The translations under genes were made by a program, and so were the position numbers. From positions 1 through 36,964 of the forward strand of contig JACPYI010000009.1 of the NCBI GenBank assembly GCA_016196115.1: a DNA stretch of 36,964 nucleotides. The letters run 5' to 3'. The notes under the pieces were generated by a model, which saw only the letters and a program-made list of their open reading frames with translations, was not told where the DNA came from and did not search any database. Numbering within the stretch: position 1 is the first letter of the stretch; each line of letters starts with the position of its first letter. Below are positions 5,677-36,964 of this stretch, one piece after another. This stretch comes from Candidatus Sungiibacteriota bacterium. GTDB lineage: Bacteria > Patescibacteriota > Minisyncoccia > Sungbacterales > HO2-52-23.

Positions 5677-6831
5677 CTATCTCTTCCTTTTTGTGTTGTG
5701 AAGACCTATAATGACTTCGAGTATATTTTCCGCAGTAACCGACTGAAATGCGGCTTTCGGATATGCCTTTGAAAACTGCACCGGTATCGAGACACTATCT
5801 TTCCATTTGCATTCAAATGCAGAAATTTGAGGGCCGCTTTTCTCTATGACATCAATCTCGGCTCCGGTACGCGACCTCCAAAACATTATTTCCGGCGGGA
5901 ATATCTCAAGAGCGCCGCTCTTCATGCGCTCGCCGACGAAATAATTTTCAAAGATCGCGCCCCTGTCCGTGCGCGTTTCCATGGGAGACGATATGTCCAC
6001 CAGCGCGTTGCGGACTCCGGTGTCAAGAAAAAAAACTTTAAACCCTTTTTTCATTTCATTGCGCGGGTTGTTTGAAAACGAATAGATACGTTTGACGATG
6101 AGCGATTGCTCCAGCAGCGTGAGATAGCGGCTGATCGTCGCCCGCATCACGCCGAGACTTTGCGCCAGTTCGTTGACGGACACGATCGAGCCGACTTGAA
6201 GCGCAAGCATTTTGAGCAGATCCTCGAACACTTTGGGGCTGCGGATGGACTCGAATACGAAAATATCTTTATACAGATAGTTGGTGGCGATATTTTTGAT
6301 CGCGAAAAGTTTTTCCTCCGGTGATTCCGACGCGACAACCGCAGGATACGAACCGAACTGCATCATTGGCAGAATATCGGACGCGCGAAGGCCGGGATAC
6401 GCCAAACTCACCTCATGCAGCGAAAGCGGCAGGAGCAAAAATTCATACGCCCGGCCGGTCATCGGCTCTTTGATTTTATTTGCAAGATCAAATAAAGAAG
6501 ATCCGGTAGCGATAATCTGAACCTCCGGATACGTATCGTAGTACGCCTTGAGAATACTGCCGATATTTTGTATGGTCTGCGCTTCATCAAACACGACGAT
6601 TTTTTTATTTCCGGTAAGCGGAAGCAGCCGATCCGGTTCGCCCATTACGAAGTGAGCGCGAACATCCGCCAATTGGCAATCATAATACGCCCCATCAGTA
6701 CCAAAAGCAGCAATGATTTTCTTGGTAAGCGTTGTTTTCCCCGACTGCCGCGGCCCCAAAATGACAACCATCTTGCCTTTGAAAAGAACAGGCACGATTT
6801 TTGCCTCAAGATCCCGTTGAAAAATCTTCAT
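5677..6831 (-). CDS. P-loop ATPase with DUF4143-type C-terminal domain
   Basis: A 384-aa protein of the AAA_14/DUF4143 group. Walker A is GPRQSGKTT near residue 27 and Walker B is KKIVVFDEAQ near 80. A GTGSS-like sensor follows (IIATGSSLFDLANK). A winged-helix-like segment (SVNELAQSLGVMRATISRYL) sits near 225. The C-terminal DUF4143 nuclease-like domain has the E...FWRSRTGAEIDVI...FECKWK pattern of PD-(D/E)xK folds. Such genes are abundant, often mobile and of unclear function. The start is set at the second Met (MKIFQRDLE), where homology begins, rather than the Met nine codons earlier. Monocistronic, leftward. Confidence 0.88.
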   Translation of the reverse strand: MKIFQRDLEAKIVPVLFKGKMVVILGPRQSGKTTLTKKIIAAFGTDGAYYDCQLADVRAHFVMGEPDRLLPLTGNKKIVVFDEAQTIQNIGSILKAYYDTYPEVQIIATGSSLFDLANKIKEPMTGRAYEFLLLPLSLHEVSLAYPGLRASDILPMMQFGSYPAVVASESPEEKLFAIKNIATNYLYKDIFVFESIRSPKVFEDLLKMLALQVGSIVSVNELAQSLGVMRATISRYLTLLEQSLIVKRIYSFSNNPRNEMKKGFKVFFLDTGVRNALVDISSPMETRTDRGAIFENYFVGERMKSGALEIFPPEIMFWRSRTGAEIDVIEKSGPQISAFECKWKDSVSIPVQFSKAYPKAAFQSVTAENILEVIIGLHNTKRKR

Positions 6832-6881
6832 GTTTCCATCATAACAAATTGCCACCAAACAAGCAAATTGTAAAAAACAAC

Positions 6882-6907
6882 AAAAAACCCCATAAACAAG
6901 GGGTTTT
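6882..6907 (-). terminator. Rho-independent terminator facing left
   Basis: AAAACCCC (6884-6891) pairs with GGGGTTTT (6900-6907) around an 8-nt loop. Read leftward the stem is followed by a run of T with single G interruptions. It ends whatever leftward transcript crosses the 6926-7048 small ORF. Confidence 0.7.
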
Positions 6908-6925
6908 AGGCTGTAATTAATATTG

Positions 6926-7048
6926 CTACCACATCAAACTCACCGGCATCTCTTCGGGTGCAAGGTCTGCAATTAGGGAGGCGGCAGCTTCTCTGCACAC
7001 CTCGCGCGACGCGCGGCCGAACAGGCATTCGTGTTGGCTAACCAGCAT
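6926..7048 (-). CDS. 40-aa ORF with its own terminator, unknown (possible gene remnant)
   Basis: An ATG at 7048-7046 opens a 40-codon frame ending in TAG at 6928-6926. The product (MLVSQHECLFGRASREVC, then an Ala-rich helix, ending MPVSLMW) is compositionally protein-like. The frame is already open for ten codons before the ATG. The strong terminator 19 nt after the stop supports a real leftward transcript. It could be a small protein or the 3' end of a gene destroyed when the tRNA-Lys island formed. Too short for the usual gene callers. Confidence 0.35.
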   Translation of the reverse strand: MLVSQHECLFGRASREVCREAAASLIADLAPEEMPVSLMW

Positions 7049-7056
7049 ATCTGCAC

Positions 7057-7085
7057 TTGTCTCGTGGGCATTTTTGCGCTATACT
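7057..7085 (+). promoter_or_regulatory. Strong promoter of the tRNA-Lys / GIY-YIG locus
   Basis: TTGTCT (7057-7062), a 17-nt spacer and TATACT (7080-7085) form a near-consensus promoter. Transcription would start near 7092, about 15 nt before the first tRNA-Lys-like segment at 7107. This is the spacing expected of a tRNA gene promoter, so it was probably the original promoter of tRNA-Lys. It now drives the broken tRNA segment, the GIY-YIG gene and the intact tRNA as one transcript. Confidence 0.65.
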
Positions 7086-7106
7086 GCTCTTGTTATTTTT
7101 TACATA

Positions 7107-7162
7107 GCCTCCATAGCTTAATGGTAAATCCGTCAGCCGACGGACTTTTAAGCAGATGACCT
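7107..7162 (+). pseudogene. Broken tRNA-Lys 5' portion carrying a palindrome
   Basis: Positions 7107-7128 match the acceptor and D-arm of the intact tRNA-Lys at 7413 with one change. Then TCCGTCAGCCGACGGA (7129-7144) replaces the bases GCAGTTGC that form the end of the D-stem and the 5' anticodon stem. CTTTTAAGCA follows, and similarity ends at TGACCT (7157-7162). The GIY-YIG start codon is formed inside this tail. It cannot fold as a tRNA. Confidence 0.8.
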
Positions 7163-7422
7163 TCTACGTATACGCAATTTACAATAATAAAGGGAAAGTC
7201 TATATTGGTTATACTGTCGATATAGAAAAACGTTTGGCTCGGCATAATAACCTATCGCCACATAAAAAGTCATCATTTACTTATAAACAAGGGCAAAACT
7301 GGCAACTGGTATATTCTGAAGAGCATTCCACACGGGAAGAAGCCAGAAGACGCGAACAACAGTTAAAAAGTTCCCGAGGAAGAAATTTTATCAGGCAGAT
7401 GATAGAAAAGTTGCCCCCATAG
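7156..7422 (+). CDS. GIY-YIG nuclease-domain protein nested between tRNA-Lys sequences
   Basis: An 88-aa single-domain GIY-YIG protein (UPF0213/YhbQ type). The signature reads YVYAIYNNKGKVYIGYT at residues 4-20, with the conserved Arg in EKRLARHNN near 26 and the metal-binding Glu in TREEARRREQQLK near 70. Its ATG and second codon come from tRNA-Lys-like sequence. Its last four codons and TAG stop (7411-7422) come from the acceptor of the intact tRNA-Lys, overlapping that gene by 10 nt. Free-standing GIY-YIG domains include mobile homing nucleases and repair enzymes. The position here suggests a mobile gene that inserted at the tRNA and regenerated a full copy downstream; that is inference. 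Confidence 0.9.
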   Translation: MTFYVYAIYNNKGKVYIGYTVDIEKRLARHNNLSPHKKSSFTYKQGQNWQLVYSEEHSTREEARRREQQLKSSRGRNFIRQMIEKLPP

Positions 7423-7483
7423 CTTAATGGTAAAGCAGTTGCCTTTTAAGCAATTGACCTAGGTTCGATTCCTAGTGGGGGCA
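7413..7483 (+). tRNA. tRNA-Lys (TTT)
   Basis: Folds as a full cloverleaf: acceptor GCCCCCA/TGGGGGC, D-stem GCTT/AAGC, anticodon stem GTTGC/GCAAT with loop CTTTTAA (anticodon TTT), T-stem CTAGG/CCTAG with loop TTCGATT, discriminator A. CCA is not encoded. Its first ten bases are shared with the end of the GIY-YIG gene. Confidence 0.95.
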
Positions 7484-7674
7484 TATCGACGGACCATAGC
7501 TTAATGGTAAATCCGTCAGCCGACGGACTTTTAAGCAATTGACCTAGGTTCTCCGTCAGCCGACGGACTAGTGGGGGCATATCGACGGACCATAGCTTAA
7601 TGGTAAATCCGTCAGCCGACGGACTTTTAAGCAATTGACCTAGGTTCTCCGTCAGCCGACGGACTAGTGGGGCA
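7484..7674 (+). repeat. Two 96-bp tandem tRNA-Lys-derived units broken by 16-nt palindromes
   Basis: The units run 7484-7579 and 7580-7674 and are nearly identical. Each keeps the tRNA-Lys blocks CCATAGCTTAATGGTAAA, CTTTTAAGCAATTGACC plus TAGGTTC, and CTAGTGGGG. Between the blocks tRNA bases are replaced by TCCGTCAGCCGACGGA, at 7512-7527 and 7552-7567 in the first unit and 7608-7623 and 7648-7663 in the second. The 5' acceptor half is replaced by the half-element CGACGGA (7487-7493 and 7583-7589). Neither unit can form a tRNA. The replacement, rather than simple insertion, is unusual. Confidence 0.9.
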
Positions 7675-7916
7675 CCACGTTGGAAAAGTCAAAGAGTTTT
7701 GGTTCGCCTCGCTTTGACCGATTCTGTCCACTACACTGATCCAACCGGACAAAATCGCTTTTTAAACTGGAAAGCACCTCAAAGACCCTTTCCGGTCTGC
7801 GTTTCTGTAATGATACAAAAGTGTATTATTTCGGAAACGCCGTCTTTTTTGCGCCAAGTCGTAATTCAAATGCTCTTATTGCAACTTTCCGGCCTAGCTC
7901 GTAATAAGCGCCGGGC
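7675..7916. other. Intergenic stretch without a recognisable gene
   Basis: About 240 bases between the tRNA-derived repeats and the fic promoter. One rightward frame is open (7699-7920, 73 codons), but its translation shows no recognisable pattern, has no ribosome site and runs into the fic promoter. A weak CCGGC/GCCGG stem near 7890-7915 has no T-tract. I see nothing supportable here; it may be degraded remnants of an older gene. Confidence 0.5.
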
Positions 7917-7945
7917 TTGATTTATTCGTTACAATCCGCTATAGT
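7917..7945 (+). promoter_or_regulatory. Promoter of fic
   Basis: TTGATT (7917-7922) and TATAGT (7940-7945) are separated by exactly 17 nt. The predicted transcript begins near 7952, only about 14 nt before the ATG at 7966. This rules out the upstream TTG at 7945 as the start codon. Confidence 0.65.
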
Positions 7946-7965
7946 TGATATATCGGATTAAACAT

Positions 7966-9060
7966 ATGGCAAATAACAACAAATTAGACCGCCGACTGGA
8001 ACAGTTACCCGCTGAAGTCTGGTCAAAAATAGCGAGAATTGATGAGTTAAAGGGGCAATGGATCGCCGGAGCGCAACTCTCGCCTCAAGTATTAGGTCGT
8101 CTCAAACGATCTGTTTTGATTACTTCAACCGGAGCATCAACTCGTATCGAAGGGGCGAGGCTTTCCGATGAAGACGTGGAAAAACTCATGCGAGGCATTG
8201 ATATCCAAAAATTTACTGACCGTGACAAGCAGGAAGTCAAAGGATATTACGAGTTGCTTGAGAATGTGTTCAATTCTTGGAAAAGTTTGAAATTCAGTGA
8301 AAGCACTATCCAACACTTCCACAAAGAACTCCTGAAATATGTAAAGAAGGACGAAGACCATCGAGGCGATTACAAAAAAAGAGAAAATCAGGTGCAGATG
8401 ATAAACGCCGCAGGCGAATCGGTTGGCGTGTTTTTTGATACTACACCGGCATATCTTGCGTCCAAAGAAACACAGGAACTGGTTGAGTGGACAGAGCAGG
8501 CTCTCGCGGATAAGAAGCATCATCCGCTTCTTATCGTGGGCGACTTCCTTGTGGAGTTTTTGCAGATCCATCCATTTCAGGATGGTAACGGCCGTCTGAG
8601 CCGTGTGCTCACCAATCTTCTTTTATTGAAAGAGGGTTATTTGTACATGCCCTACGTCTCCCATGAGAAGATAGTTGAAGATAATAAGCCGGAGTATTAT
8701 CTCGCGCTTCACCAGAGTCAAAAAACATTTTCCGCCAAAGGCGGATCCGCCTCAGGCGGAAAGACCACCCCGGACGAAACCATCATCCCGTGGCTGGATT
8801 TTTTCTTGACTATTTTCTTGAAACAATCGAAAATGGCCATCGATCTTTTGTCCAAAGAAAACATTCAACGACTGCTTACGCAAAAACAGCTCGCTGTTTG
8901 GAATTATCTCCAAAAAGTTGACAGTTCCACACCGCGCGAGATTTCCGAACAGACAAAAGTCGCTTATCCGACCGTTAGGCAAGGGATCGATAAACTGATG
9001 CGGCTCAAAAAGATTGAGCGCACCGGCCAAGGCCGTTCAACGAGCTATAGAAAGTTATAA
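7966..9060 (+). CDS. Fic-family AMP transferase with C-terminal winged helix
   Basis: A 364-aa Fic protein. Fic enzymes transfer AMP (or related groups) from nucleotides to target hydroxyls. The active-site motif HPFQDGNGR is at residues 202-210. The inhibitory motif S-x-x-x-E-G is S58-E62-G63, located N-terminal to the core, so this is a class II self-inhibited Fic. Residues 300-364 form a winged-helix DNA-binding domain (TPREISEQTKVAYPTVRQGI), as in Fic/DOC-wHTH regulators. Residues 256-265 (SAKGGSASGG) are encoded by two tandem 15-nt palindromes at 8731-8760 inserted in frame. The gene lies in the accessory island between tRNA-Lys and tRNA-Ala. The target is unknown; no separate antitoxin is needed for class II. 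Confidence 0.93.
   Translation: MANNNKLDRRLEQLPAEVWSKIARIDELKGQWIAGAQLSPQVLGRLKRSVLITSTGASTRIEGARLSDEDVEKLMRGIDIQKFTDRDKQEVKGYYELLENVFNSWKSLKFSESTIQHFHKELLKYVKKDEDHRGDYKKRENQVQMINAAGESVGVFFDTTPAYLASKETQELVEWTEQALADKKHHPLLIVGDFLVEFLQIHPFQDGNGRLSRVLTNLLLLKEGYLYMPYVSHEKIVEDNKPEYYLALHQSQKTFSAKGGSASGGKTTPDETIIPWLDFFLTIFLKQSKMAIDLLSKENIQRLLTQKQLAVWNYLQKVDSSTPREISEQTKVAYPTVRQGIDKLMRLKKIERTGQGRSTSYRKL
8731..8760. repeat. Two tandem 15-nt palindromes in frame inside fic
   Basis: TCCGCCAAAGGCGGA (8731-8745) and TCCGCCTCAGGCGGA (8746-8760) lie head to tail and total 30 nt, so the fic frame is preserved. They encode the low-complexity peptide SAKGGSASGG. They share the TCCGYC...GRCGGA pattern with the palindromes in the tRNA-Lys locus and at 30376-30390. 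Confidence 0.85.
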
Positions 9061-34772: not shown

Positions 34773-34860
34773 GCGCGGGTGGTGAAATCCGGTAAACACG
34801 CCAGCTTGAGGGGCTGGTGCCCGCAAGGGCTTGGAGGTTCAAATCCTCTCCCGCGCACCA
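34773..34860 (+). tRNA. tRNA-Leu (GAG), CCA encoded
   Basis: Class II tRNA: acceptor GCGCGGG/CCCGCGC, anticodon stem CCAGC/GCTGG with loop TTGAGGG (anticodon GAG), long variable arm (TGCCCGCAAGGGCTT), T-stem GGAGG/CCTCT with loop TTCAAAT (one G-T pair), discriminator A, and CCA in the gene. It is the only tRNA here with encoded CCA, and the left inverted repeat begins within its last five bases. Confidence 0.94.
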
Positions 34861-35002
34861 AAACAGAACTTAACGGTTTTTCAGAGACCGAATTGTGGGC
34901 GGCGCAAAGCGCCGCCCACTGATTTCCCCCCATTTTTCCAAACGAATTCGGAGCGTCGCCTTCGGCGACGCGCACTGTTTTTCCGGCGAGGAGGAGGTGC
35001 GA
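34856..35002 (+). repeat. Left arm of a ~150-bp inverted repeat around the serine recombinase
   Basis: It starts with CACCAAAACAGAACTTAACG, whose first five bases are the 3' end of tRNA-Leu, and ends near 35002. It contains two hairpins: GTGGGCGGCGC/GCGCCGCCCAC (34895-34905/34909-34919, AAA loop) and GCGTCGCC/GGCGACGC (34953-34960/34964-34971, TTC loop). The same sequence occurs reversed at 36462-36622. Confidence 0.92.
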
Positions 35003-36296
35003 GCCAATCATTCTGCTTGTGTGAGAAAGTAGAGATTTCTTCTTCGAGCGATTTCTTGGAAAGTAGTAATTTTGATTTTTCAGAACGATAATCTTGCTCG
35101 TCAATAACTTGGTCAAGATAACCAGTAAGAAGTCGCTCTAGCTTTTTCGATAAAGAAGAAATCTTCTCCTCTTTCTCTTTCGCACAAGCAGTCAAAGACT
35201 GGGCGGAGTTTCCTTGCTCCTCTAACGCCATGCGATTTAATTCCTCCGCCCAGTCTTTGGGCAAAGAAACTTTTTTGATTAAGGATGATAACTGCTCATC
35301 CAGTTTTTCAGAACGAAGCGACATTTCAGGACACTTAAAATCTTTTCTCTTTTTCGTGCAACGATAATATACATAGTGGTGAACATTGCCATTTTTCTGT
35401 CGCTTCGTTTTGTTTTCAGCAGTTATCATCATTCCGCATGAAGCGCAGGAAATGAGTCCGCAATATGGTTGAGGTTCGTTCTGTGGTTTTCGTTCAGGTT
35501 GTCCACGAAGTTTCAACATTTCCTGTGCTTCATCAAAAAGTTTCTTTGAAATGATTGGCTCGTGTTTACCTTCATGGATTTCACCACCATATTTGAACAA
35601 ACCAATGTAAAACGGATTTGAAAGGATAAAAGACGCTTTGGTTTTGGAGATTCTCTTTCCGGTTCTGGTAGTAACGCCGGACTTCGCCAAAAAAACAGAT
35701 ACATCTTCTAATCGCATATTACCTTTAACATATTTCTCAAAAGCCAAGCGCACAATACGAGACTTTTTCTTTTCAACGATTATCGTCTTTGTCCTACTGT
35801 CATTCAAATATCCAACAGGCGCTTGGCTTGGGAATATACCCATTCTCACTTTTTGGCGAAGTCCGCGTTTCGTATTTTCGGAAAGAGAATCTACATAGTA
35901 TTTGCTTTGCCCGAAAGCCATATTGAGCATAAATTTACCTTGACCAGTGTTATCGCACCAAAAGGTTGGAAATTTAATGCTCGCAAGTTTCCCTGTGTCG
36001 AGGAGATAAATAATCTGTCCGCCGTCCACCGAATTGCGGGCGAGCCGATCGGGATTCCATGCGAGGATGTTTCCGCCGAAAGTTTCAATTTCTTTCATCA
36101 TCTTGTTAAACAACGGACGACCTGGAACTTTTGCGGATTGTTTTTCTACGATTTCGGCGGAAATAGTTATACCTTCGCGAATAGCATACTCCCGCAATTC
36201 GGTGAGTTGAGCATCAATACTCAAAACTTGCTTATCCTCGACATCAGTTGACTTGCGAGCATACAAAAAGAATTTTTGTGGAGATATATTGTTCAT
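34881..36296 (-). CDS. Large serine recombinase (site-specific integrase)
   Basis: A 471-aa recombinase. Catalytic Ser16 is in FFLYARKSTDVEDKQ, with the conserved Arg motif NPDRLARNSVDGG near 80. The resolvase domain covers about 1-150. The recombinase domain spans about 160-260 (GYLNDSRTKTIIVEKKKS; ASFILSNPFYIGLFKYGGE). A zinc ribbon follows (LISCASCGMM...YRCTKKRKDFKCPEMS, about 285-335), then a coiled coil near 375-425. The last 40 codons (after KQNDW) are read from the left inverted repeat and are Arg-rich and unlike the family, so the native C-terminus was probably replaced. Such enzymes integrate phages and conjugative or plasmid-like elements. It lies directly beside tRNA-Leu. Confidence 0.9.
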   Translation of the reverse strand: MNNISPQKFFLYARKSTDVEDKQVLSIDAQLTELREYAIREGITISAEIVEKQSAKVPGRPLFNKMMKEIETFGGNILAWNPDRLARNSVDGGQIIYLLDTGKLASIKFPTFWCDNTGQGKFMLNMAFGQSKYYVDSLSENTKRGLRQKVRMGIFPSQAPVGYLNDSRTKTIIVEKKKSRIVRLAFEKYVKGNMRLEDVSVFLAKSGVTTRTGKRISKTKASFILSNPFYIGLFKYGGEIHEGKHEPIISKKLFDEAQEMLKLRGQPERKPQNEPQPYCGLISCASCGMMITAENKTKRQKNGNVHHYVYYRCTKKRKDFKCPEMSLRSEKLDEQLSSLIKKVSLPKDWAEELNRMALEEQGNSAQSLTACAKEKEEKISSLSKKLERLLTGYLDQVIDEQDYRSEKSKLLLSKKSLEEEISTFSHKQNDWLAPPPRRKNSARRRRRRSEFVWKNGGKSVGGALRRPQFGL

Positions 36297-36313
36297 AAAT
36301 TTTTGAATACTTA

Positions 36314-36397
36314 AATGGCCGCCCTAGTTGTACTCAACTCGATTGCTCAAATTGACTAAGACGGCCATTAAAATAAGCAATCGGTCAGTTGAGTACA
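36314..36397. promoter_or_regulatory. Nested inverted repeats in the recombinase leader
   Basis: One long dyad pairs TGTACTCAACT (36329-36339) with AGTTGAGTACA (36387-36397) and CGATTGCT (36340-36347) with AGCAATCG (36376-36383), a 19-bp stem with a 3-nt bulge. A second dyad, AATGGCCG (36314-36321) and CGGCCATT (36362-36369), interleaves with it, so the two cannot form together. The region lies between the recombinase promoter and ATG. It could be the recombinase binding or attachment site, or a leader RNA switch. Confidence 0.6.
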
Positions 36398-36402
36398 CTT
36401 AT

Positions 36403-36429
36403 AGTATAGCAAAAATTTTTTGTATTCAA
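36403..36429 (-). promoter_or_regulatory. Promoter of the serine recombinase
   Basis: On the minus strand TTGAAT (36429-36424) and the extended -10 TGCTATACT (box 36408-36403) are spaced 15 nt apart. Transcription would start near 36396, at the edge of the nested inverted repeats, giving a leader of about 100 nt. Confidence 0.55.
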
Positions 36430-36461
36430 AGCAAATACTATGAGTCAAAATTGCTTCTGAT

Positions 36462-36622
36462 TCGCACCTCCTCCTCCTCGCCGGAAAAACAGTGCGCGTC
36501 GCCGAAGGCGACGCTCCGAATTCGTTTGGAAAAATGGGGGGAAATCAGTGGGCGGCGCTTTGCGCCGCCCACAATTCGGTCTCTGAAAAATCTCTGAAAA
36601 ACCGTTAAGTTCTGTTTTGGTG
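36462..36622 (-). repeat. Right arm of the inverted repeat around the serine recombinase
   Basis: Reverse complement of 34856-35002. It differs by an 11-nt internal duplication (TTTTTCAGAGA twice on the complementary strand) and one extra GAG triplet (GAGGAGGAGGAGG), explaining its 161 versus 147 nt. The rest, including both hairpins, is essentially identical, so the two copies diverged recently. Confidence 0.92.
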
Positions 36623-36964
36623 TCTCTATTTTACCAAGCTCGCACCTATTTTCAAAATCGCTGACAATGTGCCACGCGCGGAGCGCGTGGTGAAGCGAAA
36701 CTAAATCGTACACTCTCCGCCCCGCCTCCCGCCTCCGCTAACGCTACGGCGGCAACCTCGCAGAAATTTTCCCTTACAATTTTTCTTTTGCGCGCGCCCC
36801 CTGAAAAAAATTCAAAAAAGGAAAGGGAAATTTCTGCTCGGTTCCGCCCTCCAAGTTTTCGGGCGGAGCGGCGGGGCTACGCTCGGGCGCGGTGGAATTC
36901 CCCCCTTGAACACCCCTTCCGCCGCGCCCTCGCTTCGGCTGGCAGATTTTTTTGGCGGGCTTAA
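36623..36964. other. Structured non-coding stretch to window end
   Basis: No coding frame is supportable. Several inverted repeats stand out: CCACGCGC/GCGCGTGG (near 36672-36690), GCAGAAATTTTCCCTT (36760-36775) with AAGGGAAATTTCTGC (36822-36836), and CCGCCC/GGGCGG near 36845-36865. Base composition swings between A/T-rich and very G/C-rich blocks. It could be the non-coding end of the integrated element, an origin-like region or a large structured RNA; the sequence alone does not decide. Confidence 0.4.

Follow-up and report, generated by a model that had tools for sequence, protein, structure and literature searches.

Here, we have analysed a 36,964-base stretch of DNA (the window) and found at its right-hand end what is very probably the tRNA-proximal half of an integrative element, one that is mobile, carries two inverted attP sites and uses the 3′ end of a tRNA gene as its attB. 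The element is apparently widespread in Patescibacteria and undescribed: our search of open-access papers found no description of it. The window is the whole of one contig (C23) of an 842-kb Patescibacteria assembly (G000). The contig ends 342 nt beyond the right arm of the element, so that the unit is cut off inside A2, the first arm of its second module. The features of the window that matter here are the following.

34773 to 34860, plus strand: tRNA-Leu(GAG), found with ARAGORN; the integration target and putative attB half-site B
34856 to 35002, plus strand: arm A1, 147 nt, forming with the tRNA the attL-like site S1 (tRNA-A1 junction); its outer end lies at the crossover core in the CCA end of the tRNA
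34953 to 34971, plus strand: terminator-like hairpin GCGTCGCC-TTC-GGCGACGC, then GCACTGTTTTT; a T-run follows the hairpin
34992 to 36296, minus strand: large serine recombinase (LSR), 434 aa conserved, identified with Pfam
36462 to 36622, minus strand: arm A1′, 161 nt, an inverted duplicate of the recombinase 3′ end that lies upstream of the recombinase
36620 to 36964, plus strand: arm A2, the start of the missing cargo module, recognised by homology to A2 of other loci; it ends with the contig
36620 to 36664, plus strand: VSLFYQARTYFQNR-stop, the conserved recombinase tail with which A2 begins; together with A1′ it makes the spare putative attP (S2)
36628 to 36655, minus strand: extended -10 promoter-like sequence TTGAAA-N16-TAAAAT, directed toward the recombinase and overlapping the putative attP half-site motif GTGCGA (36640-36645)

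A first-pass annotation of this DNA had described a serine recombinase enclosed by two inverted arms of 147 and 161 nt, each with two hairpins, the left arm starting at CACCA at the end of tRNA-Leu. Our analysis bears out this description. The sequence CACCA is the last five bases of tRNA-Leu(GAG) as delimited by ARAGORN, and the minus-strand open reading frame between the arms matches the Resolvase catalytic, Recombinase and zinc-ribbon domains (PF00239, PF07508 and PF13408) above cut-off. Comparison of the arms confirmed their lengths and showed 100% complementarity once two extras of the right arm, an 11-nt duplication (TTTTTCAGAGA) and a GGA triplet, are set aside; the ungapped match between them is 121 nt, far above chance. 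The two hairpins are present at 34895-34919 and 34953-34971. The window arm has no other copy across the 842-kb assembly, whereas many solo copies would have marked it as a dispersed repeat; related copies occur in many related genomes. That the arms belong to an unusual mobile unit, as had been suggested, is supported by the recurrence of similar arms around homologous recombinases across the class. The other suggestion, that two copies of a small element flank the recombinase, did not hold: one arm is the 3′ terminus of the recombinase gene, the second its inverted duplicate, and they end at the crossover point. Nor is the right arm the far edge of the unit, since a second, inverted-repeat-bounded cargo module lies directly beyond it. 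The GC content of the recombinase is about 0.37-0.46 and differs from that of the flanks.

To define the anatomy of the element we compared 158 distinct recombinase loci from Patescibacteria, which are not independent of each other. Scanning GTDB yielded 80 named loci, with flanks of up to 10 kb, and these include loci from Nomura-, Taylor-, Yanofsky-, Moran-, Kaiser-, Zambryski-, Uhr-, Magasanik- and Doudnabacteria. Unbroken loci have the order tRNA, A1-recombinase-A1′, A2-cargo-A2′, downstream DNA, where A1/A1′ and A2/A2′ are separate inverted repeats, each about 99% identical. An A1/A1′ pair was found in 61 of the 71 loci with sufficient flank (median 126 nt, 99% identity), and arms homologous to A1′ in 120/158 loci. 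Where an A1 pair was accompanied by at least 6 kb on that side, A2 was present in 38 of 44 loci and was not detected in the other 6. The A2/A2′ pair differs in sequence from A1/A1′ and is usually longer (median 199 nt, range 70-486 nt, 99% identity). The second module directly adjoins the first with an overlap of a few bases, and has a total length of 1.0-7.3 kb. In the window, the first 50-100 nt of A2 match A2 of five other loci (L126, L127, L138, L110 and L078) at 84-98%, and the incomplete arm contains an imperfect inverted repeat of 30 nt, the halves of which are separated by a 30-nt spacer (36754-36843). At L086 (2062-12687), two recombinase-plus-cargo units follow one tRNA-Ser in tandem and the first recombinase is degraded. 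The unit of L088 (5127-11107), of 5.9 kb, is a variant: its one inverted repeat, of 185 nt, reaches about 14-19 nt into the tRNA, and the tRNA end is found again at the far side of the unit.

That the element inserts precisely at the 3′ end of tRNA genes came from empty sites in relatives. In G257, a 6.2-kb unit of recombinase and cargo lies between tRNA-Glu and the genes that directly follow the same tRNA in its congener G316, the next gene being 457 nt from tRNA-Glu in G316 and 446 nt from S3 in G257. Likewise, G285 and G072 are empty for the element that G274 carries at tRNA-Gln. These empty sites were found by protein synteny; searches of DNA with joined flanks gave none, because the species representatives are too diverged between genes. 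For the window itself, the empty site that the first-pass annotation had proposed to look for was obtained on the tRNA side, where the congener G006 has the order rplS-tRNA-Leu(GAG)-terminator and no element. The far flank could not be placed, since G000 lacks the gene that follows tRNA-Leu in G006. In several loci, the DNA past S3 starts with a terminator-like hairpin or with the next tRNA. A scar at tRNA-Leu(GAG) of G184 (L078, 1413-1529) consists of 28 nt of A1, a hairpin made of A2, and then downstream DNA; the first 71 nt of its A2 part are 97% identical to the start of A2 in the window, and the scar is that of an internal deletion. In another genus, a solo A1 arm follows tRNA-Arg(CCT) (L005 1526-1690, in G004) with the rest of the element gone, the recombinase being joined to the arm as if by a deletion similar to that in G184.

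The geometry of the junctions follows the rules of serine integrases. At S1, the motif GTTCRA lies 18-19 nt from the start of the arm (in the window, GTTCAA at 34837-34842 lies 19 nt from it), and on the A2 side of S2 the same motif lies 22-23 nt from the same point. Comparison of 72 loci shows that the motif is closer to the core on the tRNA side, by 4 nt in 34 loci and by 5 nt in 19. In serine integrases of known structure, the zinc-ribbon motif is 5 bp nearer to the centre in attB than in attP (PMC3783163), and the 4-5 bp shift observed here agrees with this rule. The shared core is 3-5 bases long and varies with the acceptor end of the tRNA; at most loci measured, the arm reaches 3-5 nt into the tRNA. 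Across loci, 39 tRNA types are used, and almost any tRNA gene appears to be open to insertion behind it. Read most simply, the T-loop, which is common to all tRNAs, would act as the attB recognition element, and this would explain the wide target range. Such a range is unusual for serine integrases; in Mycobacterium abscessus, the reported tRNA sites belong to tyrosine systems (PMC10654092).

Read in the direction of the recombinase, A1 is the last ~45 codons of the gene. The integrated gene continues into tRNA-antisense sequence and has ends such as GIEPMT (about 102/146 by pattern). At the inner junction, by contrast, 67 of the 94 loci have an open frame that crosses from A1′ into A2 and finishes in a conserved tail (...RTYF..N-stop), for example ILV followed across the junction by CLYDFARTYFIKNS-stop, or VLV followed by SLLYQVRTYFQNK-stop, and this tail was found at the recombinase's own 3′ end in none of 146 cases. 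Since the tail is in frame across the inner junction and absent from the gene's own 3′ ends, the crossover point, and with it the putative attP, is placed by these reading frames within the recombinase gene, and a second, inverted copy of the putative attP is kept at the inner junction. In the window, A2 opens with SLFYQARTYFQNR-stop (36620-36664) and the 11-nt duplication breaks the frame into the tail. Of the differences between A1 and A1′, 60/127 are synonymous against 29.5% expected (p = 2e-5), with 0 stops. This excess supports exchange between the two copies without proving it, as one arm of each pair is coding in any case.

On the basis of these observations, we propose how the element may move. 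Recombination between S1 and S3 would release a circle in which the A2′-A1 junction occurs twice, in inverted orientation, as two identical attP sites separating the recombinase from the cargo. The LSR would then join one attP to the attB at the 3′ end of a tRNA gene, with its zinc-ribbon domain reading the near-universal T-loop (GTTCRA) and the bases beside CCA being matched as the core. If the attP in the gene's own 3′ end is used, integration would swap the last ~14 residues of the recombinase for tRNA-antisense sequence, and the spare attP (S2) would stay in the integrated element. Loss of the tail would probably weaken or silence the enzyme and stabilise the insertion, so that the element would be self-locking. 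The role of the duplicate attP is the weakest step of this proposal. A terminal-overlap test detected no circular contigs, nor was an excision product seen.

The cargo, as judged by Pfam matches, is ordinary accessory DNA. It includes a reverse transcriptase with an Lcl_C protein (diversity-generating-retroelement-like), tryptophanyl-tRNA synthetase, DNA methylases and an ArsP permease, and also a glycosyltransferase, an HD hydrolase, an enzyme of the DHDPS family and a nitroreductase. At L150 (2592-9793) and L166 (3197-8388), the reverse transcriptases together with candidate variable proteins of the Lcl_C type make up cassettes that resemble diversity-generating retroelements. The second cargo of L086 encodes a fusion of an Eco57I-like methylase with an S24 peptidase domain. 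Tryptophanyl-tRNA synthetase, an odd passenger for an element that targets tRNA genes, is carried at L085 (4025-5924) and L113 (4066-9769), and in the latter two adjacent open reading frames resemble halves of the enzyme.

Could these loci be ordinary LSR islands at tRNA genes, whose inverted duplication arose as a by-product when DNA was replicated or genes were converted, and plays no part in mobility? The 3′ ends of tRNA genes are classic targets of islands (PMC12884075), the cargo consists of varied accessory genes, and S1 × S3 alone would be enough for excision. We consider this possible but unlikely, as a by-product does not readily account for two near-perfect repeats that meet at the crossover point and are kept across the class despite their different sequences (median 99% identity), nor for a spare copy that retains the tail of the recombinase in frame.

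The first-pass annotation had raised the possibility that the recombinase segment flips. The orientation of the modules bears on this, and on the wider explanation of an invertible switch for phase variation, in which the integrated recombinase would turn over either its own segment or the cargo between the inverted arms. Near-identical inverted sites do surround both modules, their arms stay ~99% identical, and in four loci (L129, L132, L153 and L156) the tRNA and the start of an arm are on the 5′ side of the recombinase module. The bias in orientation makes such flipping improbable. Of the 144 loci with at least 700 nt past the recombinase 3′ end, 131 have a tRNA there on the opposite strand, at most 7 being reversed, and cargo orientation stood at 30:7:5, the ratio of 30:7 again departing from what free flipping would give. 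Moreover, LSRs normally need an additional factor to recombine attP with attP, or attL or attR with attP. At two of the reversed loci (L129 and L132), tRNA or tRNA-antisense sequence is found at both ends of the module, which fits recombination with another tRNA and suggests that S2 may have recombined with a tRNA within the chromosome, with inversion.

For the twin-attP element, little sign of free flipping is expected if attP × attP is not a substrate. The orientation bias of ~95% needs an added assumption, either selection or locking, because the rules of attP × attB recombination predict that either attP can be used. Silencing through the attP in the gene's own end would explain why the 3′ end of the recombinase is at the tRNA in nearly all copies.

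The long inverted repeats that enclose the recombinase, and their presence in multiple copies across genomes, might also recall a transposon-like insertion sequence with a serine transposase and terminal inverted repeats of ~150 bp, ending at the right arm. We regard this as very improbable, as the arms end at the tRNA on one side and at A2 on the opposite one, target duplication is absent beyond the core of 3-5 nt, A1 and A2′, at the outer ends, differ in sequence, and the empty sites cover both recombinase and cargo. Hardly credible is an inverted chimera formed at a contig end during assembly or amplification: although the window contig stops 342 nt past the right arm and breaks within 700 nt are more frequent on the A1′/A2 side (75/158 loci) than on the tRNA side (14), the same anatomy is found inside long contigs and in single-contig genomes (G257, and G284 with two tandem copies), in many habitats and projects, and with empty sites at the same places. 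Our sources are metagenome-assembled genomes, for whose assemblers repeats of arm length are hard, and long repeats are probably behind the frequent contig breaks on the A2 side, including that of the window.

The window copy of the twin-attP element is itself probably dead. A 104-nt deletion between copies of TTGGCTCGCACCT beside the arm, revealed by alignment with L106 and L110, shifts the frame of the recombinase, which is probably inactive as a result; together with the differences between the arms, the deletion suggests that the copy is decaying. Among 285 genomes of the class, homologs of the recombinase have up to 80% identity at full length, and 91% in the case of one fragment; several of them are bordered on both sides by arm-like DNA. 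The window genome has at least four further loci with related recombinases or fragments, on contigs C27, C7, C15 and C29. On C29, a second and more distant LSR (L207, 4694-6388) lies beside a module bounded by inverted repeats (6359-8993).

The arms may also have roles in transcription. The hairpin at 34953-34971 could terminate the tRNA transcript once the original terminator has been displaced, and both hairpins of A1 may terminate tRNA transcription. Against mononucleotide shuffles, A1 arms have the more stable fold (median z -2.5); the count of terminator-like hairpins is not above chance (3 found, 3.4 expected). Both window hairpins, at 34895-34919 and 34953-34971, fall within codons of the recombinase (WAALCAAH and VAEGDA). 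On the A2 side, promoter-like sequence matching at 9/12 or more positions is present in 19 of 94 P half-sites, where 2.5 would be expected, mostly in the subfamily of the window. As the putative attP half-site overlaps an extended -10 promoter aimed at the recombinase, the spare attP copy may act in this subfamily as promoter or operator of the recombinase.

Taken in its fullest form, our proposal is of a new class of self-limiting element, which would use the universal T-loop of tRNAs as attB and so have nearly every tRNA gene as a target, would carry one attP in the 3′ end of its own recombinase gene and an inverted spare, would switch itself off by swapping its tail, and would employ the spare as operator or promoter and as a site of capture or rearrangement. 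We hold the case for this full form to be evenly balanced.

Comparison with known systems shows both likenesses and differences. The element shares with the LSRs of A118/LI, phiC31 and Bxb1 the Resolvase, Recombinase and zinc-ribbon domains and the attB/attP motif shift of 4-5 bp, and its recombinase can be aligned with the structure of the C-terminal domain of LI integrase (4kis). It differs from them in targeting the T-loop and acceptor end of at least 39 tRNA types rather than one locus, and in having an attP inside the 3′ end of the integrase gene and two inverted attP copies. Like tRNA-associated islands, most of which use tyrosine integrases, it inserts at tRNA 3′ ends, leaves the tRNA intact and carries accessory cargo; unlike them, it has a serine recombinase, a size of about 3-9 kb, inverted instead of direct repeats, and paired modules. 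The nearest curated models for the recombinase are CcrB, XisF and CcrA. SCC elements resemble it in having an LSR that brings cargo to the 3′ end of a gene; its terminal structure is different; membership of the SCC/Ccr family was rejected on a score of 117.7 bits against a cut-off of 900 and on the target, a tRNA and not rlmH. A known phage was also ruled out, as the arm sequence had no match in the viral collection and a scan of viral contigs with the recombinase gave a single distant match. Plasmids and phages yielded no close relatives, with identity below 32% among the matches listed.

Two further systems resemble parts of the proposal. In the yeast 2-micron plasmid, two recombination sites within inverted repeats divide two unique regions and are acted on by a tyrosine recombinase. 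The circle that we propose would likewise have two inverted sites dividing two regions, but the element has a serine recombinase and integrates; no replication gene was recognised in the cargo sampled. In archaeal elements of the SSV type, attP lies within the integrase gene, which integration splits. Integration of our element would likewise alter the 3′ part of the recombinase gene, the difference being that it is of the serine family, would exchange only the ~14 last codons, and would keep a full spare site.

If this explanation is true, it would account for many of the broken contigs in Patescibacteria genomes, and for the odd annotations of recombinases with tRNA-antisense tails. It would also provide serine integrases for which nearly every tRNA gene may be a target, and a natural example of an integrase edited by its own integration, which bears on the open question of how integration becomes one-way. 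For Patescibacteria, about whose ways of acquiring genes little is known, the element would be a compact system for shuttling genes.
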